From positions 1-64,000 of IMG/VR virus record IMGVR_UViG_3300033149_005152: a stretch of 64,000 nt of DNA, one strand, 5' to 3'. Under the pieces are notes generated by a model that saw only the letters and a program-made list of their open reading frames with translations, had not been told where the DNA came from and did not search any database. Positions within the stretch are counted from its first letter, which is position 1, and the number at the start of each line of letters is the position of its first letter. Source of the DNA: a virus. Of this stretch, positions 18,203-42,391 are shown in pieces. The position numbers were made by a program, and so were the translations under genes.

Positions 18203-20322
18203 TCAACCAGCATAACCCTTTGCCATACCTTTTTCATTTTTAATTTCCGTAGTGTATTCACCAATAATCATACCCTTCTGTGAATCACCCGTAATAGAAA
18301 CCTTTTTATGAGCAAATGATCTACCCTGTAAATTTAGGACTCTAACTCTAGGAGTCGCAGTAATAATCAAAGAACTTGCTCGCATCCACCGACACAGCAT
18401 AACTTCCAACACACCAAAAGTTCCCTCGTAATAAGAAACTAAATTACGATGTTTCATTTCCGCATTATCGGTACGTGTGCGAGTGCTGTTCCATGTATCT
18501 ATAATACGCTTCCAATTAGCATCCACAGCAATAACATCAATATCACTTCCACCATTATCCCATGCCTTTTTTGTTATACTACCCAACCAAGATTCTGTAA
18601 GAGTAGCAAGAGACTGAGAATTAGTAGAAATCCTACTCCAAAGACCCTGCATTGTCCTATATGCAGTAGCACTACCAAGAGTATTACCAGATAAAACAGA
18701 CAAGAAAGTAGCCTGCTCCAAATCACGAAGCACTTCTCGCATCCTTTGACTCTGCTGATAAGTATACTCAGATGTTATATTACCCAGCTGAGTTACTGCT
18801 TCCTGGGTACCACTGACAATAATATCTTTTTTCATGATCTGGCAATAATTAGTTTTGCGAGACCTAGGTTGCGAAATATCCAGACTTACGTCTGAACCTT
18901 CCAATGCAGTTGAGTGTAAAACTCTAAAACTTTGACCCGCAGCATAAGAGGAAGCAACAGTTCCCCCAAAACTACGAGTTACAGTAAGAGTATTAGTTGT
19001 AGAATTATAAGTTATACTATTAATCCGAACATATTCGGTATTGTCTCCAACTGTAGGCATCATAAGTACATCGCCAGGTTGGAGAAAACGTCCATCGTTA
19101 TTAGTAAGTGTTACATTATCCTCAGTTGTAGTACCCATAGCAGTTGAAGAAACAACAGTAGCAGGATTCAACACATCTTCTAACCATTCCATTTTTGTTA
19201 CTATTTGCAACTTGCAAACGAAGTAGTCATTTCTGCTACTTTCTACATATCTCTATGCAGATCGGACTATATCATCACCAAATAAGGTGGGAAGCATGTA
19301 GTCTCTGGGCAAAAAGGAAAATAAATCTAATTAATTAAATCAATATCCTTATTTTCTCTAACATTTTTAATTAACTCTAAATCGGTAGTTTCATAAGGAT
19401 GATGGTTAGGTAATTTTAAACGTCTATCACAAAACTTTAAAAGATTTTCAGCTTTATGTTTTTTTCCTACTAAATACGGTATTAATTTAGGGAGAGAATT
19501 ATAACAACGCTTTATACCTTGTATAATAATCTCATATTTAATCTTCCATTCAGGATGCCTATTATTTTTTTTTGATTGCACATAATGAGGAATCCCTAAA
19601 TAATCCAACAATTCAATAGCCTGATTAATTATAATTAAATCAGTATTAACTATAGCTACTCTAGGATTCCATCCATTTTGTTTAACTTTAGAACTGCTAC
19701 GCTTAATAATAGTTACCATCCCCTCACCGTCTATAATACCACCTAACCAAAATAATAAATTTTCCTTTCTTTGCTGCTGATTGTCTAATATCAATTGTTA
19801 TCACCTCATTAGTAAATTGATCTCTAAAGAGTTTCCAGCATATAGCTTCCTTTAATCTCCACAAATTTACCTATGGAGAACATTACGTGCGGGATAAGGA
19901 GCATCACCAATTCTATCAAGAAAAGGAGTTTCATAGGGGCTTATCATCCCTATTTCTTCTGCTACATCCTCAGCAGTAACGTCAAAAACACCACTATCAT
20001 ATAAAGCTTTCAATTTTGTTATCGTGAAATCGTTTAAATTTCACTTCTTATAGTTTCCTATAAGTTCAGACTATTTCTTTCCTTTCGGAGAGGGCACTCG
20101 TGCTGATATTACCGGCATATCAAAAAAATGACTTAGCCTCGATCAATAGTCGTTGAACCCACCTAACAATTTCTTGTAAGGCTTGGCTTAGCGTTACCAT
20201 ATATAAATAAATCTTCATATTTATACTTAGGCTTCCACTAAATTCACCCTCTTTGCATCCATGAGCAAAAATCATATATCAATTTACTCATGATGGGGCT
20301 ATAACTAACCCGTAAAAGCCAA
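18203..20322 (-). CDS. Major capsid protein, split by two group I introns
   Basis: Join of exon 1 (20308-20322), exon 2 (19873-20022) and exon 3 (18203-19189), giving 383 aa. The start is TTG after AGAGGTGA. The spliced product reads MAFTGITKLKALYDSG..., then ISPYETPFLDRIG, and the exon 2/3 junction recreates NVLH|EWLEDVLNP, the conserved HEW(L/Q)xD region of the SU10/DUF5309 HK97-fold capsid family. Splice sites are fixed by P1 pairing with U.G at each 5' site and P10 at each 3' site; both junctions are in phase 0. Portal and an acidic scaffold-like gene lie upstream. Without splicing only short fragments would be made. Confidence 0.88.
19190..19872 (-). mobile_element. Group I intron 2 of capsid gene, with endonuclease
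   Basis: 683 nt. P1 is exon CTCCAT with intron GTGGAG (U.G at the splice site). P3 is GGAAGC with GCTTCC, P8 is CACC with GGTG, and P7 is GACTA (in CAGAGACTACA) with TAGTC (in ATATAGTCCG), the R and S core elements. The last base is the G at 19190. P10 is 4 bp (GAAU with AUUU). The endonuclease gene lies between the P4-P6 region and P7. Confidence 0.88.
19327..19794 (-). CDS. LAGLIDADG homing endonuclease
   Basis: 155 aa from TTG, preceded by GAGGTGAT. Residues 17-26 (LGGIIDGEGM) are a single LAGLIDADG motif, so the enzyme should act as a homodimer. It would cut intronless alleles of the capsid gene at the exon 2/3 junction, and may aid splicing as a maturase. Reading frame intact. Confidence 0.88.
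   Translation of the reverse strand: MILDNQQQRKENLLFWLGGIIDGEGMVTIIKRSSSKVKQNGWNPRVAIVNTDLIIINQAIELLDYLGIPHYVQSKKNNRHPEWKIKYEIIIQGIKRCYNSLPKLIPYLVGKKHKAENLLKFCDRRLKLPNHHPYETTDLELIKNVRENKDIDLIN
20023..20307 (-). mobile_element. Group I intron 1 of capsid gene, ORF-less
   Basis: 285 nt, no ORF. P1 is exon GGGT with intron GCCC (U.G at the cut). P10 is 5 bp: exon 2 start AUAAC with intron GUUAU. P7 is GACTAT (in TTCAACGACTATT) with ATAGTC. P9 is TTATAG-GAAA-CTATAA. A further hairpin GTGAAAT/ATTTCAC lies at the 3' end before the terminal G at 20023. It lies after only five codons. Confidence 0.85.
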
Positions 20323-20383
20323 AAAAATCACCTCTAAATTTTACTTTTCATAATGAAAAATATTGTTATTTTTTATTTTTTTA

Positions 20384-21295
20384 TTAAGTTGCGGCAGCCG
20401 TATCCGCTTCCATTTCCTTTAATGCTCTTTTTTCTTCCATAAACTGAGCCATATGTTCCGGCCTGGTGGGATTATCCTCTGCTATCTTTTTCAATTGTGC
20501 CAATTTAGCCTTTTGAGATTCCAACATAGTAGATTTATCCTCACGTGTTTCTGAAGCACCAGACCCACCCGTTCCTGCCGCCTTTTTAGCCCACTTCGGC
20601 ATATCTTCTCTTATCCCATCAGATACAGATTTCTCTTCACCCTTTTGATTAATATATATCCATTTTTCATTTTCATCATCATATTGTAAATTATCTACAA
20701 ATAATTTAGATACATTACTAATATCTACGGCACCAGCAGCTTCACATGCGGCAGACAATAATCTATCTCTTTCAGCAAGTAAAGATTTTGTCTCAGCATT
20801 TTGTCTCATTTCTTCCGCCATCTGTACTCTTTTTTCCAGCTGTCTTATTCTTTTTGCTTGTTCCTTTTTTTCTCTAGCAGCTTCTTCAGCCTCTATTTCC
20901 CCCAATAATTCCTCTATATCTTCATCATCATAATCTTCTTCATCATCATCGTAATCTTCATCGTCATAATCCTCGTCATCATCATAATCATAATCATAAT
21001 CTTCATCGTCATAATCCTCGTCATCGTAATCTTCATCGTCATAATCCTCGTCATCATAATCTTCGTCACCTAATTCTTCATCCAGAACATCAAAAAATTC
21101 TTTAGATGCTTTAATTATCTCAGCATCATCCTCTCTTTGACTTTGTAATTGTTTTATTAACTTGTCTTGTTCTTTTATAGTCGTTTCTAATTCATCTAGC
21201 TTTTTATTAAACTTTTTATCATCCCCAGCTTCTCCCCTCTCGTCAGCAAGAAATGAATTCTTATAATAATTAAAAATAATATCCCATAAAACCAT
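20384..21295 (-). CDS. Scaffold-like protein with acidic repeats
   Basis: 303 aa. Residues 76-125 are about ten copies of DDEDY, encoded by 15-base repeats (about 20924-21065). They are flanked by coiled coils and an Ala/Glu-rich C-terminus. Position immediately before the major capsid gene, extreme acidity and coiled coils fit a capsid scaffolding protein. Confidence 0.65.
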   Translation of the reverse strand: MVLWDIIFNYYKNSFLADERGEAGDDKKFNKKLDELETTIKEQDKLIKQLQSQREDDAEIIKASKEFFDVLDEELGDEDYDDEDYDDEDYDDEDYDDEDYDYDYDDDEDYDDEDYDDDEEDYDDEDIEELLGEIEAEEAAREKKEQAKRIRQLEKRVQMAEEMRQNAETKSLLAERDRLLSAACEAAGAVDISNVSKLFVDNLQYDDENEKWIYINQKGEEKSVSDGIREDMPKWAKKAAGTGGSGASETREDKSTMLESQKAKLAQLKKIAEDNPTRPEHMAQFMEEKRALKEMEADTAAAT

Positions 21296-22575: not shown

Positions 22576-24204
22576 TTATGACATTGGAGGAAAAAATCCA
22601 GGTTTTTCTTCCTCATTTATTTCTATCTCAGCGTCAATAACATCAGAAATATCTTGCCTTACTTTTCCAAGCATTTTACGTGCAAGACGTTTTTCAAGTT
22701 CTCTTTTAAATAATTGTGACCTAATTTGTTGTTTAATTTCACTAGAAGCTTTTATATCTTCAGCTAAATTCATTATATCAAAATTATCGGGATAATTAAT
22801 ATATCCTTTCCACTTCCTTCCTATCCATTTTGACCATAATTGATGTATTTTTTCCTCTCCTTCCTCAAGAATATCTGCCTTCTCTGCCAATGTCCTGTTA
22901 GTTTCATTAAATTCACGAGCATAAGCTATACCAGATTGTGATTCCTTTAAAAAACTAATTCCACCACCAAGAACAGCCAATCTATAAATTACTTGCTCCA
23001 TCTTTGAAATCATTTCCAAAATAAACGATCCAGGTTCGCTTGACGGAGTCAAATAAGAAGGAGGCTGATCCCCAGTATATTCCAAAACATTATTTAATGA
23101 CAACTGAACAGTTTTAGCATTAGTTTGTGTCTGTTGCATAAGTAAAACAGAAATGCATTGCTTATAAATATCCTCGTCCACCAAAGACAACCAATTATAA
23201 ATAGCTACATTAATCTTTCCTATTGAAGAAATTGCCGAAATACCGTCCTCAGTGTCCCCCAAAGAATTTCTATTCAAAAATTTAACTAATGGTACTTCAT
23301 TTAATTTATGTGTTCCTCTCTGCACTTCAATTACACATGTACCTTTTTTCTCTTCAATCACAGTATGAACATACCATTCATTTCTAGTCCAAGTTCTGTA
23401 ACGTACTACTTTTTTACCGTGTCTTTCCTCAAATGCTTTAATATTTGAACTTGCCTCTTCTCTAATTCTAACCCATAAAAATTGACCGTCATCATCCAAT
23501 TCCCAATTCACCAAATTCAACGGAGGAATATGAACCAAATAAGGCTTTATACCAGCATCTATTCTTTCTTGTTCCGTCTCTATAGTTCTATCAACTTGGG
23601 GCATGTCCACAAGAACATAACTTTCCCCGTATATAAGATAAGAAACTCCAACCTTTTGCTTCATAAACTTATTTATCGAATCTCCACGTCCGTTACAATT
23701 CTCCCAAAAATCTTTTAATTCATCCGAAATTTCCTGACCAATTCTCATCTTTTTTTTGATCTCATTTGCTCTTTTAATTCTCTCAGCAACATCCGAATTA
23801 ATAATTTCATCCCCGTACATATGAGAATTCTGCTGAGGTACTGACTGTTGAGGAAGAGATTGTCCAACCTGATCAGACTCTATTTTATTTAACTCAGGTT
23901 CTACTTTCTCTAACCTAGCCTTATCTTCAAGCCTCACAATATTCTGCGAAAAAATATAATGCAAATACATATCTATTACGGTAGCACAATAATTAATCCA
24001 GGGTGCTCTCTTTCTTCTATTATCTACAGATAACTTTTCTTCCCGTATATGCCGATATATAAATCGTGTAATATCTCTTCCGTCATACCACGCTCTATAA
24101 TTCTTCCATGCTTGTTCCTGCTTGATATACTCGGGATGTTTTTGTTCTAATATTTTTTTTAAATGCAAATTATCACGAATATCCGTTAATCTCGATTTGA
24201 TCAT
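22576..24204 (-). CDS. Portal protein
   Basis: 542 aa. Long helical protein with SYLIYGESYVLVDMP, a wing-region strand pair, and IYNWLSLVDEDIYKQC, then Gln-rich TQTNAKTVQLSL, the pattern of phage portals. It sits between the terminase and capsid genes at the usual size. It forms the dodecameric DNA channel at one capsid vertex. Confidence 0.8.
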   Translation of the reverse strand: MIKSRLTDIRDNLHLKKILEQKHPEYIKQEQAWKNYRAWYDGRDITRFIYRHIREEKLSVDNRRKRAPWINYCATVIDMYLHYIFSQNIVRLEDKARLEKVEPELNKIESDQVGQSLPQQSVPQQNSHMYGDEIINSDVAERIKRANEIKKKMRIGQEISDELKDFWENCNGRGDSINKFMKQKVGVSYLIYGESYVLVDMPQVDRTIETEQERIDAGIKPYLVHIPPLNLVNWELDDDGQFLWVRIREEASSNIKAFEERHGKKVVRYRTWTRNEWYVHTVIEEKKGTCVIEVQRGTHKLNEVPLVKFLNRNSLGDTEDGISAISSIGKINVAIYNWLSLVDEDIYKQCISVLLMQQTQTNAKTVQLSLNNVLEYTGDQPPSYLTPSSEPGSFILEMISKMEQVIYRLAVLGGGISFLKESQSGIAYAREFNETNRTLAEKADILEEGEEKIHQLWSKWIGRKWKGYINYPDNFDIMNLAEDIKASSEIKQQIRSQLFKRELEKRLARKMLGKVRQDISDVIDAEIEINEEEKPGFFPPMS

Positions 24205-24271
24205 TATTATTTAAAAGCACTTAACCCCCCTTTTTCTTTCAACTGCCTTCTGAAATTATCTATCTCGATAT

Positions 24272-24442
24272 TTAAAAAGCCCCCAATCTTCCCTCTCTTC
24301 TAATTCTATCTAATAATGGAGCTTTATTTCCCTCACAATAAAATTGAACCAACTTATCATCTCCTCCGTACTTAAAAAGATAATTCAAAATCTCATGGTA
24401 TATACCAATTGGATGATTTCTTAATAAATTTATCTTAATCAT
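24272..24442 (-). CDS. Hypothetical small protein, probably frameshifted
   Basis: 56 aa from MIKINLLR (AAGGAG upstream). It ends RREGRLGAF at a TAA inside the run TTTTTAA (24274-24278). In the next frame coding continues to 24207, ending FRRQLKEKGGLSAFK right against the portal start. The two ends resemble each other. One missing T would explain it. Confidence 0.6.
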   Translation of the reverse strand: MIKINLLRNHPIGIYHEILNYLFKYGGDDKLVQFYCEGNKAPLLDRIRREGRLGAF

Positions 24443-24452
24443 CTTATACTCC

Positions 24453-24614
24453 TTACTCTTCATCTAAAGTCAGTGGTAAATCATTTAAAATATTCTCCAA
24501 TGCACTTATAGTTATATGTGCACCTGGCTCATGCTCTCGTAAATATCTTACATACCATTCAAAAACATCTATCGCATCACACCATTCTGCTTGTGTTGGT
24601 TTATCTTCCCACAT
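24453..24614 (-). CDS. Hypothetical small protein
   Basis: 53 aa (MWEDKPTQAEWC...), acidic and helical, with a GGGGG RBS. Not recognised. Confidence 0.55.
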   Translation of the reverse strand: MWEDKPTQAEWCDAIDVFEWYVRYLREHEPGAHITISALENILNDLPLTLDEE

Positions 24615-24616
24615 TT

Positions 24617-26194
24617 TTATATCCCCCTAACACTATACGTTCTATACAAAATTCTTCTTCCTACCCTATCAGAAAAAATTGCATAACGTAAAGCATCTAC
24701 CGAATGGTCATTTTCATCCTTTATAAAATCTTCAAAATCTGGCCTGCCATCAGGCAATTTAGGATGCGAATAACCTTCTAATTCCTCTCTTAATTTTCCA
24801 TTATCTCCCGAATCAATGATAACTCTTAATCTAGGATTCCCTTTTGGAGTAAAAGTCAACAATTCTTTTAACGCATTCACTCCTTCATATCGGGCATTCT
24901 CACATGGGGTTATCAAAAGACCCTTATCTCTCATATCCACAATACTCTGTTTCGCTGACTTATCCCCGTAAATCATTTCTGGAACTCCCCAATATGGAGC
25001 CTTCTTAATCACCTCACTGTGTCCTGAAGTTGTTCTATCCCCCATAATTTGAGAATCCCAATAATACGACCAAAATACCCACCAATTACCAAGAGGATCA
25101 ATTGCACATTTTACATAAGCAAATGTTGAACCAAAATCTAATCCTGATACAAATCTCCAAGTTTTCGGCAACTCTTTTAATTGAGTTATACTTCTAAAAT
25201 CCTCCCAAGTAATAAAATGTTCATCCGTTAAATAATCCCCAAAAACTGTAAAACCACCACTTGGTCTCAAACATAACCACTCAGTAGTCCATGTATCCCA
25301 ATTCATTAAAGTAACTTTATCTATAAAATCTTGTATCTTATACCATCCGCCCCTACAATCATGGGCCTTACCCCCGCACACTAATCTTTCTTCCCTTTGT
25401 TTACCAAATTTCCTTGAATATACAGGACAATCACCATAAACAGGATCACCATGACACTTTCTATGACAAGTTTCTAAAGTTTCCCAAATACAATATTTAT
25501 AAACTTTTATTCCTAAAATTTCAGCTTCGTCTAGTAACCTTTGAACTACACCCCGTGAATGTTGCCGTGTACTCAAGTAAGTATTTTGACCCATAACATC
25601 CCTTTTAGAAATAGACATAGACATAGATGTTTGTAATAAATCCCATGTTAATAACTCAATCTCATCTATTCTTAATTTCTGAGGATGTGGTGATCTAAAT
25701 CCTTTCTCCGATCCCGTAACAACTTCAACAATGGAATTATTGGTTAATTCAGTTCTTTGTTGACTCTTTAACTGCTGCCCCTTTTCCATTTTAATATGAG
25801 GAGCAAATAATTTATCGTTATAAATATTAGTAAAATATCTATAACAACGTCCAGCCTGTGCTTTTGAAGCTCCGGCAGAGCATATTTCAATATCGTCTTT
25901 AAATTCCGCATCAAGATGGTTCAAAATAGCAACATTTAACGTCTTTCCACCAGTTCTATTCGCAAAAGAAAAAGCATTTCTAACCCTCTCAAAAAACATA
26001 TCCGAAATAAACTGAAAAGGAGCAATGTGTCCTTTCGCCACACAAGAAGGATGAACATATTTAGGAATATTCCACCCCAAAAAATATCTAATATAAAAGT
26101 CTAATTCCTCATCATTTTTTATACCTTCTCGTTTAAAATAACTTAATAATGCTTTTTTTTCTTTAAAAGATAATTCATTATTCCTCGTTTCCAT
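24617..26194 (-). CDS. terL: Terminase large subunit
   Basis: 525 aa. The ATPase domain has a Walker A variant at 79-85 (NRTGGKT) and Walker B at 174-178 (LRIDE). The RNase-H-like nuclease domain has Asp353 in SGLDFGS and DENDHSVDALRYA near the C-terminus. Six Cys between 243 and 280 probably make a zinc insertion between the two domains. It pumps DNA into the prohead and cuts concatemers. TerS and portal are neighbours. Confidence 0.93.
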   Translation of the reverse strand: METRNNELSFKEKKALLSYFKREGIKNDEELDFYIRYFLGWNIPKYVHPSCVAKGHIAPFQFISDMFFERVRNAFSFANRTGGKTLNVAILNHLDAEFKDDIEICSAGASKAQAGRCYRYFTNIYNDKLFAPHIKMEKGQQLKSQQRTELTNNSIVEVVTGSEKGFRSPHPQKLRIDEIELLTWDLLQTSMSMSISKRDVMGQNTYLSTRQHSRGVVQRLLDEAEILGIKVYKYCIWETLETCHRKCHGDPVYGDCPVYSRKFGKQREERLVCGGKAHDCRGGWYKIQDFIDKVTLMNWDTWTTEWLCLRPSGGFTVFGDYLTDEHFITWEDFRSITQLKELPKTWRFVSGLDFGSTFAYVKCAIDPLGNWWVFWSYYWDSQIMGDRTTSGHSEVIKKAPYWGVPEMIYGDKSAKQSIVDMRDKGLLITPCENARYEGVNALKELLTFTPKGNPRLRVIIDSGDNGKLREELEGYSHPKLPDGRPDFEDFIKDENDHSVDALRYAIFSDRVGRRILYRTYSVRGI

Positions 26195-26210
26195 TAACCT
26201 TATCCATTAA

Positions 26211-26525
26211 TTATTTTTTGTTCTCTTCTTCCCTTGCCAACTTTAAAACATCGAAATATTTATATTTCCCCTTTTGGTCAGGAGAATATTTTTTTGCTAT
26301 CTCAGGATGCTCATCAAGATATAAAGCAACCGCACAGTGAGTCCTCACCCTATCCTCTAAAATGCAAGCAGATGCAACAAGCGTGGAAATTTCTAAACCA
26401 TATTTACTCCACCATTCTGTCTTTAATGGCCAGTGAAAATGCTTCCATCTCAAAATGTCAGTCTCACTAAAAGAGTTATAAATAACATTAGTCATTTTTT
26501 CTAAACGCTCTTTAAAAGTTGTCAT
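26211..26525 (-). CDS. Hypothetical protein between TerS and TerL
   Basis: 104 aa from ATG (a GTG three codons earlier is an alternative). Trp/His-rich middle. Not recognised. Confidence 0.65.
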   Translation of the reverse strand: MTTFKERLEKMTNVIYNSFSETDILRWKHFHWPLKTEWWSKYGLEISTLVASACILEDRVRTHCAVALYLDEHPEIAKKYSPDQKGKYKYFDVLKLAREEENKK

Positions 26526-26548
26526 AACAAACACCTTTCTCCTTCACA

Positions 26549-27043
26549 TCAACTTTTTCCATTAACCTTATCCATTAATCGTTTTGCATCATCATGATCC
26601 ATCATATAAGTCCAATCCGGATTTACATCATTCTTAATGGCATCTTTGTCAACTTTACTTGCTCTAATTTCCCACGCATCAATATTCTCAAACAATTTAC
26701 TATTAACTTTATATATTAAATCAATAGCTTTTAAAGCTAATTCGTCATCTTTAGTATTCAAAAGTTGTTGATGCCGCTTCATAGCTTTTAAAATTAAAAA
26801 GGAAAATCTTTTAATAACTCTTTCCCTTGACTCATCTAAAATACTTTTTTCCATTTCTAAATACTCTTTATCACTATTAACCATCTCGTGAATAGCTTGA
26901 TAACTATATCCCAATTTGTTTGCTATTTTTTGTTGCGTTTCCCCTTGACAACGTAGCCATACCACTTGTTGTTTTTGAGCTTTTGTAAGAATTTTCTTCC
27001 TTCTTTTATACTTATCAACTTTACTTTTCCTTTCCCTTAACAT
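26549..27043 (-). CDS. terS: Terminase small subunit
   Basis: 164 aa. The N-terminal third is a helix-turn-helix (QQKIANKLGYSYQAIHEMV) with a basic leader, followed by long helices for oligomerisation. This is the usual TerS plan, adjacent to TerL. It recognises phage DNA and starts packaging. First gene after a promoter. Confidence 0.8.
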   Translation of the reverse strand: MLRERKSKVDKYKRRKKILTKAQKQQVVWLRCQGETQQKIANKLGYSYQAIHEMVNSDKEYLEMEKSILDESRERVIKRFSFLILKAMKRHQQLLNTKDDELALKAIDLIYKVNSKLFENIDAWEIRASKVDKDAIKNDVNPDWTYMMDHDDAKRLMDKVNGKS

Positions 27044-27080
27044 CCTAAATAAAACCTCCCAAAATTATATCCTTATTTAT

Positions 27081-27108
27081 AGTTTACCACATTTTTTCAG
27101 GAAGTCAA
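27081..27108 (-). promoter_or_regulatory. Promoter of the packaging/head operon
   Basis: -35 TTGACT (27103-27108), 16-base spacer, -10 TAAACT (27081-27086) preceded by TGG (extended -10). About 38 bases upstream of the TerS start. It shares the core TTGACTTC-TGAAAAA with the + strand promoter at 48329. Confidence 0.7.
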
Positions 27109-27184
27109 GAGGAGGAAACTACAGGTTTTTGTACATTCCCTACCAATATCTCCCTATAGATAAAAATATCTTCTGTTTATAAAC

Positions 27185-30100
27185 TTAAAAACATTCTTTA
27201 CTACCACAAAAATTACAATATGAACAACCATCTGAATCAATATACATCATATTACCACACTTACAAAAAACACCAGACAAAGCATCTTGTTCTATAGGTT
27301 CTTCTTTTTCCAATTGTGATATATCCTCCAAAATAACATCTGCAATGGCATCAGGACCAGAAGAATATATTTTACCATTACTAAAAGAAGTAGCTTTACC
27401 TCCTATACTATCTAATTGATCAACAACATCCCTAACATCAGTCCCATTTTTTAATGCCAATGTAATTAATCTACCAACAGCCTCAGACCACGCCGTAACA
27501 TCTGATCCTCCCTTACCAAAATTCAAAAACGTTTCTCTCAACCTACCACGTCCCTTTAAAATATCACAAATTATTCTCCTATCCTTCTCACATAATGAAT
27601 AATTTTTAGTAACATAAGCATTACCATGCGGACTTTTTACTTTAACTGTCTGACCATACATTATATCAAATCTAGTCTTAAAATCATCTGGTAATACGGA
27701 CTCCCATGCTTGAATTCTACGACTATCCTGTCTATAAACAGTAATCCCTTTCACTCCTTGATCATGAGAATCCATAAAAGCCCTGGATACATCTTCAACA
27801 GTAGCATCCTTAGACAAATTAATTGTTTTTGAGATACCAGAATCAATATATTTTTGAAATACTCCAACCATTTTTACGTGATCTTCGGGCTTAATTTCTG
27901 AAGATTTCACAAAATAAGACGGAAGCTCATATTTACCAGTTTTTTCTCTATAATTCTTTACAAGTGGGTGCAAAACTTTTAATTTATTGTCTATTATATT
28001 CTTAGAAAATTCCCATTCAAAATTAGGTTCAATACCACTTGAACATCCAGCAATTATACTACAACTCCCAGTGGGAGCCATACAAGATACAACGGCATTA
28101 TCCGATCTTCTATAATTATTACAACGCCGTTTAAAAAACTCCATAAATTTTTCAGCAAAATCTATAGACTCTCGAGAACCATATTTTAATCCTAATTTTA
28201 TTAACAAATCTCCCCACCCCATCAACCCCAGTCCAATCTTTCTTGTTTCTTTTGTCATCTTTTCGATCTCTGGAGTAGGAAAAGATGAAACGTCAATTAC
28301 ATTATTTAAAAATTGAATACCAAATTTTATTAATTTGTCAAATAAATCCCAATTTATTGAAGTCATACCTTCAGCCCATACGGGAATATCAACCAATTTA
28401 CTTACGTCTATACTACCAAGATTACAATTATGAACAATAAAACCGTTAGCAATAAAATGTTTAGACTTGGGAATTATAAGGTCATATACCTCACGAAGCC
28501 CAATCTTATTCACACTTTTTATCCTAACTAAATCTTGGATTTTATCATATCTATATTTTGGATTCCAATTAAATTTATTTAATTTATAAGAATTTAAAAA
28601 CCCAATTAAACGCATAAACCTAAAAGCATTTCCCTGAGTAACTGCCAACTTATATTGATTCCTTCTATTCAAACTTTCGTCAAATTTGCTTTCATAAATA
28701 GTAGAATGAATCCCGAATCTAATAAGCAAAATTTGAATATCAATCAAAAATTTCTTACTAGTACTAAATAAAAAAACTTGATTATTTTGTTTACCCGAAA
28801 TAGTACCATCTGCCGTAAATAACCCCTTTAAAAAGGAAATTTGAAAAACGGGATTTTCCATCCATATACATGTTGGTAATCTTCTTTCATATGCCTTTCC
28901 TAATTTAACTCCCAATTTCAATAATTTATCTCGTGCATCTTTTTTACCAGTTTGTAACTGATAATTATTAGGAGTATTATACATAGGGACTATATCATAA
29001 CATTCAAAATAATCCAAAAAAACTGGTAATAATCTATCTTTTACTTCAAAATCACCATCTTTTTCATTAAATGATATGCCAACTATTTTCTCAGTAAACC
29101 AACCGTCCCCATGTATCCAACCCAACATTTCGGCAACCAGATTATTTTCTTTTTCCGGAATAACATAAGAATTTAATGGAATACGAAGCAATTGTTCCTT
29201 ATTAAATTCTGTAACAGGAAGCCAATTTCCATCTTTATCTAAAAATAAATGATCTGAAGTTGTTTTTATTTTATATCCCTCAAAAGTCTCTATTTCATAA
29301 ACCACTTTTTTACCACGTTTTAGACTTTTATAAACTGTTTCATAAAAGGGCATTCCCTCCAATTCAACAGCAACCATATCCCCCTTCTTAACATTCTTTA
29401 TGGCTTTCCAGCCGTCTTCACATAAAATTAAACTATCCTCATCCAAACATGATTCGTTAGGATAAAGAGGAAGCTCAGAACAAGGATTAGTTGCAGTTAT
29501 TAGACCATATTCTTTTAAAAGAGGATTATTTTTATTAATATTATCTAAATAAATTAAGCCAGGTTCGCCATTTAACCAAGCATTTTCACAAATTTTATCC
29601 CATATTTTCTTCACAGGAACTTCTGCAAATCCTCCTCCACCCCATCCATCAAAAAAATCATAACTATCATGAGAAAAAAGTAAATTATTAGTTTTTAAAG
29701 CCTGAAAAAACCATTCATCAACAGCGACAGATATATTTAAATTAGATAAACTATTTTCATTCCTCTTACAATCAATAAATTCCAAAATATCAGGATGCCT
29801 ATAATTTAAAATAGCTATCATCGCTGCACGTCTTAATCCACCTTGTTTTATTTGTTCAGAAAATACATCAAACATATTCATAAAACTCACAGGGCCAGAT
29901 GAAAACCCCATTGTGCTTTTAATTCTTGATCCTTTCGGTCTTAATGGGCTAAAATCTATTCCTACTCCACCACCAACTTTAAATATTTTAGCCGTATCGC
30001 ACAGAGTTTTTAAAATACTTTCTAAAGAATCTTCTATACCTAAAACAAAACAAGCAGATAAATTATTTAGAGGTAATCCTGCATTCATGAGACAGGGAGA

Positions 30101-31636
30101 ATTATGAGTTACAAAACCATTTGCTATATAATTATGAGTTTTATCCACAGTTAGGTCAAATACAGGAGATATGAACTTCTTCCCAATATATATTTTCTCG
30201 TATAAATTATCTTGTAAATCACATAATTTATAAGTATAAGAATCCCTAAAATCAGAAATTTTATTAGCTAATTCCAAACATTTTTCCGTAGAAATAGCAA
30301 TTAAATCTTTATTCTCTTTACGACCACAAAATGGAGAAAACAATCTATAAGTAGCCATTCCCCTATTCTTACTTTGTCTATACCATTCTAAAATTTTATA
30401 CTTTTGATTAGGAATTCTCTGATTACTCTTCCCAACTTTTGAAAGCGAGGATAAAAAAGCTTTTTTACGTTCACTAATAAATCCTATTATCTTCTCAAAT
30501 CGCTCTAAAAAAGAAGAATAAATTCTCAATCTATAACCATTAACTTTACCACATTTTCTTTTTTCGCTAACTTTAGAATAAATACCCACCCCCAACAATA
30601 ATAATTGAACCTGCCTAATAAATTCTTCTGAAGAACTATAAAACTCTATATTTCCCTCAACTGATTTATCTTTATTTATACGTTCTTTATTCACGCAACC
30701 ATCCGCCTCAAATAAACCCCTCAAAAATCCACAAATTGAATCAAAATCACCTTCCAAAATCGCTGGTGGAATTTTCAAATTATCTGATGGCTTAATTAAA
30801 TTATTAATCTCCATAAATTCCCTAAAAGCCACTCGTGCAAACGAGATAACACCACAATTTTTATCTTTGATTTTAGTAAATTTAGGAGTAATCCCAAAAA
30901 TTCTAAAAATCAAATTATTTAAATACTCGCCCAAATCAACATCATCATAAAAATATGCTAACTTCAAATTTGAATTTTTATCTATATGCCCATCACCAAA
31001 ATAATAACCCAATAATTCTGCAAAATAAACATCTATATAATCTGGCAATTCAATATATTTTCTATTTGATCCATATCCATCCAGCGGAAATAATTCTTTA
31101 TTTCCTTTATTCAAAACATACTTTTCACTTCTATTACATAAAAATCCCATTTTTAAAGAAAGATAATCGTATTCTAAATCAATATCTTTTAACATTTTCC
31201 AAAGCAAATCTCCATTTTTATCAACCACCAAAAAACTATGTTCCGGAGTAGCATAAATCTGATAACCCGAAGTGGAAACAATTTCCCAAACTTCTTTTTT
31301 TCCATTTTTCCAAAATTTCCTCAACTCTCCATATCCCACATGAGAATAAAGAGATAAATTACCAAGTTCCTCCAAATCAACAACCCTTTTCAATCCTTTT
31401 CCAGTAGCTATCAATGAATCGGGACCAACACAATTTGGAGTAAAATATAAATTCTTCAATATCCACTGAAATTCTTTTTCTAAACCACCATCTCCATTAG
31501 ATATATGTTTCGCTATTCGGTCAAACATTTGCTCAGGAGTTTCTATAATATTACCTTCAACATCCTTTTGAAGATAACGCTTTTTTAAAACGAGTAAGGC
31601 ATTTTCACTTAAATTTTGCAATATATCACTCTCCAT
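27185..31636 (-). CDS. nrdJ: Class II (B12-dependent) ribonucleotide reductase with two inteins
   Basis: 1483-aa precursor. Removing the inteins (69-512 and 730-1070) leaves 698 aa. Family marks: PNSPCLMNAG, KVGGGVGIDFSPLRPKGS, NPCSELPLYPNES-CNLGSID and MAPTGSCSIIAG. A TSCPD-like domain follows, then a C-terminal zinc ribbon (CKCGNMM ... CNFCGSKEC). No small-subunit gene is nearby, consistent with the adenosylcobalamin class. It reduces ribonucleotides for phage DNA synthesis. Both inteins lie at catalytic or substrate-binding segments. No strong RBS before the ATG. Confidence 0.92.
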   Translation of the reverse strand: MESDILQNLSENALLVLKKRYLQKDVEGNIIETPEQMFDRIAKHISNGDGGLEKEFQWILKNLYFTPNCVGPDSLIATGKGLKRVVDLEELGNLSLYSHVGYGELRKFWKNGKKEVWEIVSTSGYQIYATPEHSFLVVDKNGDLLWKMLKDIDLEYDYLSLKMGFLCNRSEKYVLNKGNKELFPLDGYGSNRKYIELPDYIDVYFAELLGYYFGDGHIDKNSNLKLAYFYDDVDLGEYLNNLIFRIFGITPKFTKIKDKNCGVISFARVAFREFMEINNLIKPSDNLKIPPAILEGDFDSICGFLRGLFEADGCVNKERINKDKSVEGNIEFYSSSEEFIRQVQLLLLGVGIYSKVSEKRKCGKVNGYRLRIYSSFLERFEKIIGFISERKKAFLSSLSKVGKSNQRIPNQKYKILEWYRQSKNRGMATYRLFSPFCGRKENKDLIAISTEKCLELANKISDFRDSYTYKLCDLQDNLYEKIYIGKKFISPVFDLTVDKTHNYIANGFVTHNSPCLMNAGLPLNNLSACFVLGIEDSLESILKTLCDTAKIFKVGGGVGIDFSPLRPKGSRIKSTMGFSSGPVSFMNMFDVFSEQIKQGGLRRAAMIAILNYRHPDILEFIDCKRNENSLSNLNISVAVDEWFFQALKTNNLLFSHDSYDFFDGWGGGGFAEVPVKKIWDKICENAWLNGEPGLIYLDNINKNNPLLKEYGLITATNPCSELPLYPNESCLDEDSLILCEDGWKAIKNVKKGDMVAVELEGMPFYETVYKSLKRGKKVVYEIETFEGYKIKTTSDHLFLDKDGNWLPVTEFNKEQLLRIPLNSYVIPEKENNLVAEMLGWIHGDGWFTEKIVGISFNEKDGDFEVKDRLLPVFLDYFECYDIVPMYNTPNNYQLQTGKKDARDKLLKLGVKLGKAYERRLPTCIWMENPVFQISFLKGLFTADGTISGKQNNQVFLFSTSKKFLIDIQILLIRFGIHSTIYESKFDESLNRRNQYKLAVTQGNAFRFMRLIGFLNSYKLNKFNWNPKYRYDKIQDLVRIKSVNKIGLREVYDLIIPKSKHFIANGFIVHNCNLGSIDVSKLVDIPVWAEGMTSINWDLFDKLIKFGIQFLNNVIDVSSFPTPEIEKMTKETRKIGLGLMGWGDLLIKLGLKYGSRESIDFAEKFMEFFKRRCNNYRRSDNAVVSCMAPTGSCSIIAGCSSGIEPNFEWEFSKNIIDNKLKVLHPLVKNYREKTGKYELPSYFVKSSEIKPEDHVKMVGVFQKYIDSGISKTINLSKDATVEDVSRAFMDSHDQGVKGITVYRQDSRRIQAWESVLPDDFKTRFDIMYGQTVKVKSPHGNAYVTKNYSLCEKDRRIICDILKGRGRLRETFLNFGKGGSDVTAWSEAVGRLITLALKNGTDVRDVVDQLDSIGGKATSFSNGKIYSSGPDAIADVILEDISQLEKEEPIEQDALSGVFCKCGNMMYIDSDGCSYCNFCGSKECF
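28427..29449 (-). mobile_element. Intein 2 of the ribonucleotide reductase
   Basis: 341 aa (precursor residues 730-1070). It starts with Cys (CLDEDSLI) and ends in FIANGFIVHN before extein Cys1071 of CNLGS. DOD endonuclease motifs are at 837-847 (MLGWIHGDGWF) and 936-946 (LKGLFTADGTI). All splicing residues are present. Confidence 0.93.
30101..31432 (-). mobile_element. Intein 1 of the ribonucleotide reductase
   Basis: 444 aa (precursor residues 69-512). It starts with Cys (CVGPDSLIATGKG), has the TxxH-like B block (ATPEHSF), and ends in YIANGFVTHN before extein Ser513 of SPCLMNAG. LAGLIDADG motifs are at 208-218 (LLGYYFGDGHI) and 305-315 (LRGLFEADGCV), so the homing endonuclease looks intact. 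Confidence 0.93.
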
Positions 31637-31644
31637 TAATTATT

Positions 31645-31893
31645 TTACAAATCACTAAAATCATCTTGTTTTACTCCTATTATACTTTTAACTATCCCCC
31701 TTTTTACTTTTTTCTTTGCCCTTTTCCTTAAATATTGATCTATTTCGCTAAAAAATTCCTGAATAACTTGTGTTCTATTTTCCTTACTATTACTGCTTAT
31801 TTCAACTTCAAAACCTAATTCATCCCCAATAGAACTATAATCTTGAGATAATTTATAACTAGAATTCACGAAAACTTTTACCACCTTAGCCAT
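31645..31893 (-). CDS. Hypothetical small protein
   Basis: 82 aa, beta strand then Lys-rich helix. The ATG overlaps the stop of the NYN-domain gene by one base. Not recognised. Confidence 0.65.
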   Translation of the reverse strand: MAKVVKVFVNSSYKLSQDYSSIGDELGFEVEISSNSKENRTQVIQEFFSEIDQYLRKRAKKKVKRGIVKSIIGVKQDDFSDL

Positions 31894-32384
31894 TATCTTT
31901 TCCTCCGCAATAATACTTTATTGTCCAATATTTCATAAAAATCAGTTGCAATCAACAAATCACGATTAAAACTATCATGAAATGCAAAGACTCCCACCTG
32001 TTTTCCTTTTTTCTTCAAATATTTACAAAATGGTAAAAAATCGCCATCTCCACTAGCAATAACAATCACATCATAATCAACAGCAAAATTATTCAAATCA
32101 TTAAACGTAGCTTGATCCGTATCTGTGTCAGACAACTTCCCATCTTTCTTCTTTATTTGTACAACATTTGTTTCATATCCAATATATTTAAGCATCCCTT
32201 TAAAAGACTCTAAATTTTCCCCTAAATGATTAAAATAAGCAATAGAATAAATCTCAGAATATCCCCGACACTTTTTCATAACCAATCTTCTCAGTTTCAT
32301 AAAATCAATTCTCGACTTAAACCCATACAAGTCTCTCGCAGAATAAAAAAGATTTGGAACATCAACAAGAAACAATACTTTCAT
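31893..32384 (-). CDS. NYN/PIN-like domain protein (putative ribonuclease)
   Basis: 163 aa. LVDVPNLF (Asp8, Asn11), DTDTDQA and ASGDGDFLPF (about 110-118) are the acidic metal-binding motifs of the NYN domain (LabA/DUF88 type), related to PIN nucleases. It likely cleaves RNA, perhaps host or early phage transcripts. Overlaps the preceding nuclease-like gene by 4 bases. Confidence 0.8.
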   Translation of the reverse strand: MKVLFLVDVPNLFYSARDLYGFKSRIDFMKLRRLVMKKCRGYSEIYSIAYFNHLGENLESFKGMLKYIGYETNVVQIKKKDGKLSDTDTDQATFNDLNNFAVDYDVIVIASGDGDFLPFCKYLKKKGKQVGVFAFHDSFNRDLLIATDFYEILDNKVLLRRKR

Positions 32385-32968
32385 CGTTCTTCTCCAACTT
32401 CCCTTAAATATCTTTTCCTATATTCCACCAAAGTATCTTTTTTTACACAAGCAAAAAAATCTTTTAATAATATAAATGTCAAACTTTGATCTTTAAACCA
32501 ACATCCCAAATCCGCATATATAGTAAGAAGTAAACCATATCTTTGAGGAAGTAAAATTCTAGCCAATTCATCTGTATCACTAACATCAAAAAATATCTCA
32601 AGTGGAAATAAAAGAATATCGGGAAAATAATTCTTTGTAAAAATAAACATAGGAAAAAAATTAACTGTATTCGCATTGTTTAAACATTGTTTTAATCCCT
32701 CTATAATAAATGGAGATTTTGGATACCGCAATAATTCATCTATTGACCAATCTTCCCAATGTTTAGTTTCAACTGAAAGACAATAATCAGGAACACTTTT
32801 CGCAGGAACTATATCCCCTGGAAAAATACCTTGATGAGTATGTATACGACTACCTGAACCAGGAGCATGAACAAGAGCATTCTCATCACCACACCACCAC
32901 TTTCCTATTTTCTTAGCAATTTTTTTTTCATATCTCGTTCCCTTAGCTTTACAAGCCCCACCTTTCAT
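32381..32968 (-). CDS. PD-(D/E)xK nuclease-like protein
   Basis: 195 aa. KGTRYEKKIAKKI followed by GDIVPAK and SVETKHW fits the order Glu ... Asp ... ExK of the PD-(D/E)xK fold, as in phage Holliday-junction resolvase-like enzymes. The location with recombination genes supports this. Exact DNA substrate unknown. Confidence 0.6.
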   Translation of the reverse strand: MKGGACKAKGTRYEKKIAKKIGKWWCGDENALVHAPGSGSRIHTHQGIFPGDIVPAKSVPDYCLSVETKHWEDWSIDELLRYPKSPFIIEGLKQCLNNANTVNFFPMFIFTKNYFPDILLFPLEIFFDVSDTDELARILLPQRYGLLLTIYADLGCWFKDQSLTFILLKDFFACVKKDTLVEYRKRYLREVGEER

Positions 32969-33017
32969 TATCTATTCCTCCGCATTTTTCATAATTATGA
33001 ATATTTGAAACAAGCAT
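32949..33017 (-). CDS. Possible 22-residue peptide
   Basis: MLVSNIHNYEKCGGIDNERWGL, with GGAGTAGAGAAT before the ATG. It overlaps the next gene start. It may only serve translational coupling. Confidence 0.3.
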   Translation of the reverse strand: MLVSNIHNYEKCGGIDNERWGL

Positions 33018-39910: not shown

Positions 39911-42391
39911 TTAATCTCGCACCTTCACCTTTTTTGCATTTCTTTCCGCTATAGACCAATTTTCTCCCTCCCCAATCTCAAATAAAAATTTATGATTGCC
40001 CAATTCAGGAATAGATTTCCCCATTTTCTCAATCATAATATCCCTAACTTCTTCAACCAATTCAACAGGAGTTTCCACCATTAACGAATCATAAACGATA
40101 TTAACAGGATATGGAATTTCCATAAGGGACCTAGAAGTTAATTTTCCATTTGCAAACCTCCTTTCAAATTCATGAACTATATTATAATTAGCATCTTTTG
40201 TAACCTCAACAGCACAATGTTGAGGCAAAATATTTAATACCTGATTTCTCTGATGGAAATCTTTAATATTAAAATCAGGAAATCTCCTTTTATACCCAAA
40301 AGGAGTTACTACATACCCATTCTTTTTAACCTTCTTTAAAAGATTAGTCTGAAAATCGGGTATCTTAGGATAATGGGAATAAATTCTATCCTTAATTTCT
40401 GAAACCTTTTCAACATCTATCCCCAAACTACGAGCCATACCTGCATCCGTGCTACCATAAATAAGTCCAAAATTAACTATTTTAGCATCCCTCCTTATTT
40501 TCTTTAACTTATTATAAATATATATCTTTTTCTTATCGTTCTCATCCAACTTTTTAAATTTGTCAGTAGCACTTATTCTTTTTAATTTCAAATATTCTTC
40601 ATCATAAATAGCTATTGCCGTTTCATGATGAGCATCCCCTTCCCCCCCATACAAATTCTGAATTATTTTCTCTTCACCGCAAAGGACACCCAAAATAAAA
40701 ATCTCTATCTGACTATAATCAGCAACTATAAAAGTATATCCTTCTTTTGCCACAAATAAAGACCGAATTGAAATAGACTCTTTCTCATCCCCTAAATCAA
40801 TTTCCCCATCAGCAGGAATGTTCATAATATTAGGATCACTTGAAGAAGGTCTCAATGTAATAGTACCAATATCGTTAATATTGGTATGAATCCTACCATC
40901 AGGAGTCTTTGAAAATTCAATTAATGCTTTTATATCCTTCGTCAACAATTTGTTTATACGTTTATATTTTGAAATGTAAGAAACAACGGGGTGCTCATCC
41001 ATTAATGCATTCAAAACCTCTTTATCCGTTGAAGGAGCACCTTTTTTCGTATATTTAACCTCAGTCAAATCAAGATCATCAAATAACAATTTCCTTACTT
41101 GTAGATGTGAATTTGGATTAAATTCGTCATCACCAGTTTCTAACTTTATTTTATTTAAAAAACCATCTTCCGCCCTTTTCAATTTCCTTTGCACATTTTT
41201 AACCTGGGATAAATTTATTCCTATTCCTCTCAATTCCATCTTCAAAGATACAAGTAAATTTCTCTGCATCCTTTTCTGAAAATAGGGCCAAACTTTTTCA
41301 GTTCTCATTTTAGAAACTATTTTTGGAAATATCCTCGCTAATGCATCAACATCACTTGCACCATAATTTATTAAAATATCCTTCGGTGCTTCAACCATTT
41401 TCTTTTTATACGCCTCGACAGGAAGCCAATAAAAACCCATCTCAGGAGCAAATAAAGAAACCAATGTATCTAAATCACGACTTCCACTTGTATTTTCATC
41501 AGTTAAATAATACATGGACAAAGTATCAAAAAACTCTCTTAAAGAAAATACATCAAAACCATTCTGGTATAAAAATCTTAAATCAAACTTAATATTTTGG
41601 CCTACAAGTTTATTTTTACTAATCAATTTATTAATCAATCTTATTAAAGTCGGATTAATTCCCAACCTATAAACAGGATAAATATATCCCACTCCCGATT
41701 TTTTAGTAAATTGAATAGACAATATTCCATTATCCCAATAAGTTAATCCGGTAGTTTCTAAATCAAAAAACAAAAATTCATTCCTTTGAGTCAATTCAGT
41801 AACTATTCTATTTAATTCTTTATTACTTTTTATCAAAATAGGTTTAGTAACAACAGAGGGTATTATTTTTTCTCCCAAATAAACCTTATAAGCAAATTTT
41901 AAATCCTCATACATCAGATCAACTTGATAAGGTTGACGTGCGGCAGGATGATATGTAGCAATAAGTTTAGCACCCATATATTCATATATCTGCCCTCTTG
42001 AATTCTTAATTTCTGCTTTACGTGTAAAAACTTTTAAAGCGCAAGCTCCTAATGCAATAATTAATTTAGGTTTTATTTTATTTATAACAAAATCTAAATA
42101 TGGTTTACACTGTTTACACACTTCATCATCCGGTTTTTCATTTCTCACATTGTAACACTTCACCACATTATCAAAAAATAATTCAGAAATATTAAAACCA
42201 GCTTTTTTTAATCCAGCCCTTATTCTTCCACCAGCTTGTCCATCAGGATGAAACGGTATATTATGTTCAGCCTCATTTGCACCAGGATTTTGACCCACCA
42301 CCATCACCTCAGCATGAATATTCCCTTTTCCCCAAACAGCCTTATTGAATTCATATTGACAATCATGACAATATTTTCTTAACTTTTTCAT
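39911..42391 (-). CDS. DNA polymerase I fused to uracil-DNA glycosylase domain
   Basis: 826 aa. Residues 1-170 are a family 4/5 UDG-like domain (CHDC pair, VVGQNPGANE, PFHPDG, LIIALGACAL, TYHPAA), as in the SPO1 polymerase. A DnaQ-like 3'-5' exonuclease follows (FFDLETTGL), then a family A polymerase: VADYSQIEIFIL (motif A), RRDAKIVNFGLIYG (motif B) and IVYDSLMVETP (motif C, where the usual HDE is YDS). It is the replicative polymerase. Its start overlaps the RemA-like gene stop (ATGA). Confidence 0.95.
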   Translation of the reverse strand: MKKLRKYCHDCQYEFNKAVWGKGNIHAEVMVVGQNPGANEAEHNIPFHPDGQAGGRIRAGLKKAGFNISELFFDNVVKCYNVRNEKPDDEVCKQCKPYLDFVINKIKPKLIIALGACALKVFTRKAEIKNSRGQIYEYMGAKLIATYHPAARQPYQVDLMYEDLKFAYKVYLGEKIIPSVVTKPILIKSNKELNRIVTELTQRNEFLFFDLETTGLTYWDNGILSIQFTKKSGVGYIYPVYRLGINPTLIRLINKLISKNKLVGQNIKFDLRFLYQNGFDVFSLREFFDTLSMYYLTDENTSGSRDLDTLVSLFAPEMGFYWLPVEAYKKKMVEAPKDILINYGASDVDALARIFPKIVSKMRTEKVWPYFQKRMQRNLLVSLKMELRGIGINLSQVKNVQRKLKRAEDGFLNKIKLETGDDEFNPNSHLQVRKLLFDDLDLTEVKYTKKGAPSTDKEVLNALMDEHPVVSYISKYKRINKLLTKDIKALIEFSKTPDGRIHTNINDIGTITLRPSSSDPNIMNIPADGEIDLGDEKESISIRSLFVAKEGYTFIVADYSQIEIFILGVLCGEEKIIQNLYGGEGDAHHETAIAIYDEEYLKLKRISATDKFKKLDENDKKKIYIYNKLKKIRRDAKIVNFGLIYGSTDAGMARSLGIDVEKVSEIKDRIYSHYPKIPDFQTNLLKKVKKNGYVVTPFGYKRRFPDFNIKDFHQRNQVLNILPQHCAVEVTKDANYNIVHEFERRFANGKLTSRSLMEIPYPVNIVYDSLMVETPVELVEEVRDIMIEKMGKSIPELGNHKFLFEIGEGENWSIAERNAKKVKVRD

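Follow-up and report, generated by a model that had tools for sequence, protein, structure and literature searches.

Does a phage ribonucleotide reductase gene that is interrupted by two long in-frame inserts still yield an enzyme, and are the inserts intact elements able to splice and to home? We examined this question at positions 27185..31636 (minus strand) of a 64,000-nucleotide stretch (hereafter the window; positions 1 to 64,000 of IMG/VR virus record IMGVR_UViG_3300033149_005152). This window belongs to a virus record of 98,585 bases, the rest of which, in two stretches, was also examined. The gene is nrdJ-like and consists of one open frame of 1483 amino acids (aa), which encodes the precursor of a class II ribonucleotide reductase with two inteins, here termed I1 and I2. 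Our analysis indicates that this precursor very probably splices to a 698-aa reductase and that both inteins probably act as homing endonucleases as well.

The identity of the host protein was established from its three extein segments, all on the minus strand. Extein 1 (31433..31636; 68 aa) ends in FTPN and carries PF00317 at residues 8-68. Extein 2 (29450..30100; 217 aa) runs from SPCLMNAG through SACF and NPCSE to NES, and extein 3 (27185..28426; 413 aa plus the stop) starts with CNLGS and ends in a cysteine-rich tail; the two were aligned to 1xje/1xjk and to 1xjk, respectively. Removal of both inserts joins these segments into 698 aa. Pfam detected the reductase barrel PF02867 (4.8e-100) in three stretches of the precursor, together with the PF00317 N-terminal domain and a TSCPD domain. 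Among the NCBIfam profiles, TIGR02504 (NrdJ_Z, adenosylcobalamin-dependent reductase) passed its cut-off of 399.95 with 505 bits, whereas NF006417, which had the best E-value, reached 588.5 bits and stayed below its cut-off of 961. Alignment to 1xje/1xjk revealed that the equivalents of Thermotoga maritima C134, N320, C322, E324 and C333 are all retained, C134 within SACF and N320, C322 and E324 within NPCSE; we take C322 to be the thiyl-radical cysteine and C333 to be a redox cysteine, as is generally held for this enzyme family. Judged by the barrel with its NxCxE motif, the redox cysteine pair and a best profile for B12-dependent ribonucleotide reductase, the host gene is a class II, B12-type reductase. 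An uninterrupted viral reductase about 40% identical to the joined extein (L003) is continuous across both sites, with the sequences PNSPTLMNAG and NESCNLGS, so no residue is gained or lost at the joins. A search of plasmids with the reductase matched 1442 records; the best match covered 39% of the query at about 38% identity, and no place in them spanned 80% of it.

The two inserts have the organization of complete inteins. I1 (30101..31432, minus strand; precursor residues 69-512) comprises 444 aa, CVGPDS...ANGFVTHN, followed by Ser, and I2 (28427..29449, minus strand; residues 730-1070) comprises 341 aa, CLDEDS...ANGFIVHN, followed by Cys. They are inserted at PN/SPCLMNAG and NES/CNLGS, respectively (slashes within motifs mark junctions). 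Pfam found Intein_splicing in two stretches of the precursor and LAGLIDADG_3 (PF14528) in two. The splicing residues are C1, T62 and H65 (block B), H443-N444 and +1 Ser in I1, and C1, T64 and H67 (block B), H340-N341 and +1 Cys in I2, with the block F Asp kept in both. Cys1, the block B T..H pair, this Asp and the terminal His-Asn are conserved in the intein alignments. The LAGLIDADG motifs of I1 read LLGYYFGDG and LRGLFEADG, and their acids D147 and D244 are invariant in the I1 family alignment; those of I2 read MLGWIHGDG and LKGLFTADG, with D115 and D214 read in the sequence as the acids. The first-pass annotation had described a class II reductase with two full-length inteins whose splicing and endonuclease blocks look intact, and had staked this on the order of the blocks and the C-terminal His-Asn. 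Profiles and alignments agree with it: blocks A, B, DOD1, DOD2, F and G follow in order, with His-Asn at the C-terminal junction, in both inteins, and its coordinates, intein lengths (444 and 341 aa), junctions and 698-aa product proved exact against the open frame and the joined exteins.

Given the base composition of each insert, the log10 probability of its frame staying open by chance is -19.4 for I1 and -14.6 for I2, and open stretches in the other two forward frames reach at most 43 codons in I1 and 31 codons in I2; chance open frames are thereby excluded. The predicted fold of I2, based on an alignment of seven sequences, had a predicted local distance difference test score (pLDDT) of 81.4 and a predicted template modelling score of 0.84, and its best solved match was 1dq3 (PI-PfuI; Z 25.3, root-mean-square deviation (rmsd) 5.7, 321 residues aligned). 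I1 was modelled with a pLDDT of 59.4, residues 94-132 and 333-410 lying below 50. Its Hint and LAGLIDADG parts matched 7qss (Z 20.0, rmsd 9.9, 323 aligned) and 1dq3 (Z 19.7, rmsd 8.8, 323 aligned), and mini-inteins also matched; the large rmsd values probably reflect the placement of the two domains in the model. Sequence profiles built from the I1 and I2 families likewise detected inteins. Each insert is in frame, leaves a complete and conserved host protein once the exteins are joined, and combines a Hint fold with an inserted endonuclease. I1 and I2 therefore appear to be class 1 inteins with a two-motif LAGLIDADG endonuclease, both intact-looking.

We propose that the gene would be expressed as one 1483-aa precursor from which both inteins excise by standard class 1 protein splicing, in which an N-S shift at Cys1 is followed by attack of the +1 residue, which is Ser in I1 and Cys in I2, then by cyclisation of Asn and by an S/O-N shift. 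The two joins would restore the 698-aa class II reductase, which would supply deoxyribonucleoside triphosphates for phage replication. I2 separates the equivalents of C322 and C333, the latter of which serves as its +1 nucleophile. Since I2 splits this pair and leaves the redox cysteine at its +1 position, the unspliced precursor should be without reductase activity. During mixed infection, each LAGLIDADG endonuclease would cleave another reductase gene at its uninterrupted site, and repair would copy the intein into the cut gene (homing). What is established is an open frame with its blocks and residues, the predicted folds (well for I2, partly for I1) and the kinship with reductase inteins; splicing, DNA cleavage and homing of I1 and I2 are what we infer from these features. 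Several points weigh against this proposal. No alleles with and without I1 or I2 from close kin were found among the phage records and viral contigs, and for want of such filled and empty alleles homing is not visible in the sequence. The roughly 80 low-confidence residues of I1 (333-410) lie between the endonuclease and block F, where the model is weak. Finally, no clear ribosome-binding site was seen by eye before the reductase, though this says little.

We further explored the relatives of I2 with degenerate DNA patterns for an intein end joined to CNLG, strict on viral contigs and looser on a collection of 84,980 genomes. The strict pattern found one viral contig (L009) and the looser one five places (L010-L014): one class II reductase gene, from a Candidatus Woesearchaeota archaeon (L013), and genes from one Bacteroidetes genome and three Thiotrichales-type bacteria; L009 and these four bacterial genes are read as class I reductases by their motifs. 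The L009 locus (L009:3-1763) is a 587-aa fragment of a viral reductase that seems to hold two inteins, of which the second shares the site of I2. A whole-intein search of the viral contigs found no I2 relatives. The inteins at C333-type sites (HN/CNLG or HN/CTLG; L013/L015, L044, L009, L010-L012 and L014) share the insertion point and block plan of I2, and most of them its GWxxGDGW first LAGLIDADG motif, but they are only 25-30% identical to it and five sit in the reductases read as class I. At E <= 0.001, a threshold that takes in inteins and endonucleases in general, I2 had matches in 136 of the 279 genomes of the phylum of the Woesearchaeota genome G001. Eleven of its 12 best places there lay within reductase frames, at C333-type sites (L030, L031), at C322-type sites (NP/CGE or NP/CSE; L032-L037, L041) and at others.

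A tree was built from 34 inteins hand-picked from these loci, SPbeta and a Moorella phage. I2 fell inside a clade of C322- and C333-site reductase inteins (support 97/94), within which the C333-site inteins, I2 included, formed one group at modest support (79/78). The end branches were long (1.69 for I1 and 1.86 for I2), which makes finer placing unsafe. These results suggest that the inteins at the two active-site cysteine positions are one family across archaea, bacteria and phages. The Moorella phage MTATph1 (OR602862.1) carries a 282-aa intein at NP/CGE in its reductase (L026:2101-2946), where the record's table names the reductase only. Reductases of the G001 phylum (L044 from genome G229, L015 from G001, and L042-L047) hold inteins at the C134, QGG/TRRGA, C322 and C333 sites; L044 has three inteins in one gene, and in L047 the QGG-site intein is followed by Lys, which should block normal splicing.

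I1 matched 153 of the 279 genomes of the same phylum, with a best score of 131.1 bits. In a control search of the phylum to which the Bacteroidetes genome G004 belongs, I1 matched 28 of 345 genomes and scored 69.5 bits at best; the kinship of I1 and I2 to the G001 phylum may reflect where we searched, and the control covers I1. The four best places in the G001 phylum were reductase inteins at QGG/TRRGANMG (L042-L045; BLAST scores of 137-149 bits at 27-29% identity); next came inteins of reductase, S-adenosylmethionine synthetase, MutS, MCM and GyrA, the host families being checked for L042, L046, L048, L051 and L052. The L042-L045 inteins are nearest to I1 by both BLAST and tree path and have in common with it an extra region before block F, yet they occupy another site of the reductase gene and have +1 Thr instead of Ser. 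In the tree, I1 had no fixed place, though it lay outside the C322/C333 clade. The viral contigs held no close relative, the matches being two terminase inteins at 33% over 91 residues. One terminase intein locus, L005:690-2900, is overlapped in another frame by an HNH-like open reading frame (ORF; by eye) at 2189-2689.

The site of I1, HN/SPxLMN, was occupied in none of the viral contigs and in 0 of the 279 genomes of the G001 phylum. A query across the I1 junction matched 107 phage records, and the three examined (a Cellulophaga phage, a Geobacillus phage and an uncultured phage) had reductases without an intein at this site. I1 may therefore mark a new insertion site, a lead only, as the 84,980-genome collection and InBase were not scanned for it. 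We consider it unlikely that I1 reached an unrecorded site by a jump from QGG/TRRGA, which would make the gene a nursery of site-changing LAGLIDADG inteins, with I2 splicing in addition switching the enzyme on.

Inteins move between genes, and the first-pass annotation had taken the selfish elements of the window as a sign of heavy exchange with related phages. This suggestion found no support: no near relative turned up among the phage records searched, the intein kin are about 30% identical, and the GC content of the inteins is like that of the host gene. A megablast of window positions 24000-33000 against 50,697 phage records gave no DNA match, and the terminase had no relatives in viral contigs and one weak match in phage records. 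The best intein matches, at about 30% identity, come from reductase genes of cells no less often than from phages. Recent arrival was also considered from base composition and rejected, since inteins and exteins are alike in both GC (29.1 and 29.4% for the inteins; 29.9, 31.3 and 32.7% for the exteins) and third-position GC (0.203 for I1 and 0.214 for I2; 0.221, 0.152 and 0.198 for the exteins). These facts fit old or well-adapted residents equally well as recent arrivals. In haloarchaea, neighbouring inteins were found to impede one another where neither of the two sites is filled (PMC10643990); the double allele of I1 and I2, if live, would therefore be expected to spread mostly into genes already holding one of them.

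Dead endonucleases are a possible, albeit clearly less probable, explanation: the inteins would still splice, but with one or both endonucleases inactive they would be fixed residents inherited vertically. Such residents would agree with the lack of any allelic variation found, with intein GC like that of the exteins and with the long end branches of I1 and I2. However, each LAGLIDADG pair retains both of its catalytic acids in domains of full length, and free endonuclease domains that have become useless usually decay.

Two observations, that I2 is placed between the equivalents of C322 and C333 and that insertions at active-site cysteines recur in many reductases, could also be taken to mean that I2 splicing is a switch, keeping the reductase inactive until the +1 catalytic cysteine can react in a redox or cobalamin-rich state. 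This is improbable, as homing endonucleases target conserved motifs anyway, selfish targeting alone explains the position, and no regulatory feature was found. That the precursor frame is an assembly artefact or a pseudogene is scarcely credible. The source is a metagenomic virus contig, but no support for this idea was found; the frame has no stop and no break, all catalytic residues are kept, and both sites agree to the residue with uninterrupted relatives.

The record carries selfish elements besides I1 and I2. The five that had been counted in the window were recovered as one clear and one weaker group I intron, one LAGLIDADG ORF and the two inteins. The clear intron (20047..20325, minus strand; RF00028, 62.5 bits, cut-off 50) lies near the 5' part of the major capsid gene. 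Part of the weaker one (19243..19448, minus strand; RF00028, 34.8 bits, below the cut-off of 50, E 3.3e-6) lies upstream of the main capsid exon (18203-19210), and the 155-aa ORF (19327..19794, minus strand) in this second intron region matched PF14528 with 21.6 bits against a cut-off of 22.5. A third intein, of 308 aa and HNH/NUMOD3 type, was found outside the window at 84808-85731 of the record (minus strand). Its host is a 1286-aa glycosyltransferase-methyltransferase-glycosyltransferase 2 (GT2) fusion (L008:2232-6092, minus strand; 84232-88092 of the record), in which it lies within the GT2 domain with junctions FYG/C...VVHN/CIHEHVE. It had weak matches only, none of them in viral contigs, and literature searches brought up no obvious description of a glycosyltransferase intein. 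At least three inteins, two introns and one ORF of the intron type are thus present in the record. This load is rich but not the highest, as three inteins and 23 homing endonucleases are reported for Pectobacterium phage CB7 (PMC7344957).

With respect to the host, an archaeal one lacks support; the terminase matched 0 of the 279 genomes of the G001 phylum, a search without a positive control. The PolA-type polymerase with its uracil-glycosylase domain, together with a DnaB-like helicase, suggests a bacterial host. Purine-rich start leaders were present in 22 of 30 chosen phage genes, with no control set. The group I introns do not decide the matter, because archaea have such introns too (PMC6125680). 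Two other genes, both on the minus strand of the window, may be mentioned: 39911-42391 fuses a uracil-DNA glycosylase domain to a family A DNA polymerase, and 20384-21295, just upstream of the capsid gene, is a 303-aa ORF with a long Asp-Tyr-Asp/Glu repeat, perhaps, as a guess, a scaffold-type protein.

The reductase with its two putative homing inteins may be compared to known systems. PI-PfuI (PDB 1dq3, whose title names an archaeal intein-encoded homing endonuclease) is, we assume, the Pfu RIR1-1 intein of an archaeal ribonucleotide reductase, inserted elsewhere in that enzyme. It has the Hint plus two-motif LAGLIDADG build of I1 and I2, is among the top fold matches of I1 and is the best sequence match of the I2 family profile (E 1.4e-19), but it is only about 23-24% identical to the inteins here and belongs to an archaeal chromosome and not a phage. 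The Hint fold of NrdJ-1 (PDB 8ubs) matches I1 and I2 at Z 16. NrdJ-1 is presumably a class II reductase intein from viral-like environmental DNA and, as we understand it, a split mini-intein without endonuclease at a site other than those of I1 and I2. Phage reductase genes targeted by inteins and introns include SPbeta nrdE and a Campylobacter phage nrdA with two putative inteins (PMC3653736, PMC7344957), and a halobacterial survey lists five reductase intein alleles, one of them with 55 bacterial members (PMC4071816). SPbeta, the Campylobacter phage and CB7 resemble the present record in having several selfish elements per genome and phage reductase targets, whereas their host proteins are class I reductases (and a helicase) in contrast to the class II enzyme here. 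Reductase genes are a long-known intein target, and I1 and I2 belong to a known kind of LAGLIDADG intein. Searches of open-licence papers brought up no phage class II reductase that carries two full-length inteins. The locus leaves the view of what inteins are unchanged. Its contribution is a clean example of a class II reductase with two inteins in an uncultured, divergent tailed phage, along with what may be a new insertion site (I1) and an intein whose +1 nucleophile is a catalytic cysteine (I2); the splicing and cleavage of both are easily testable.

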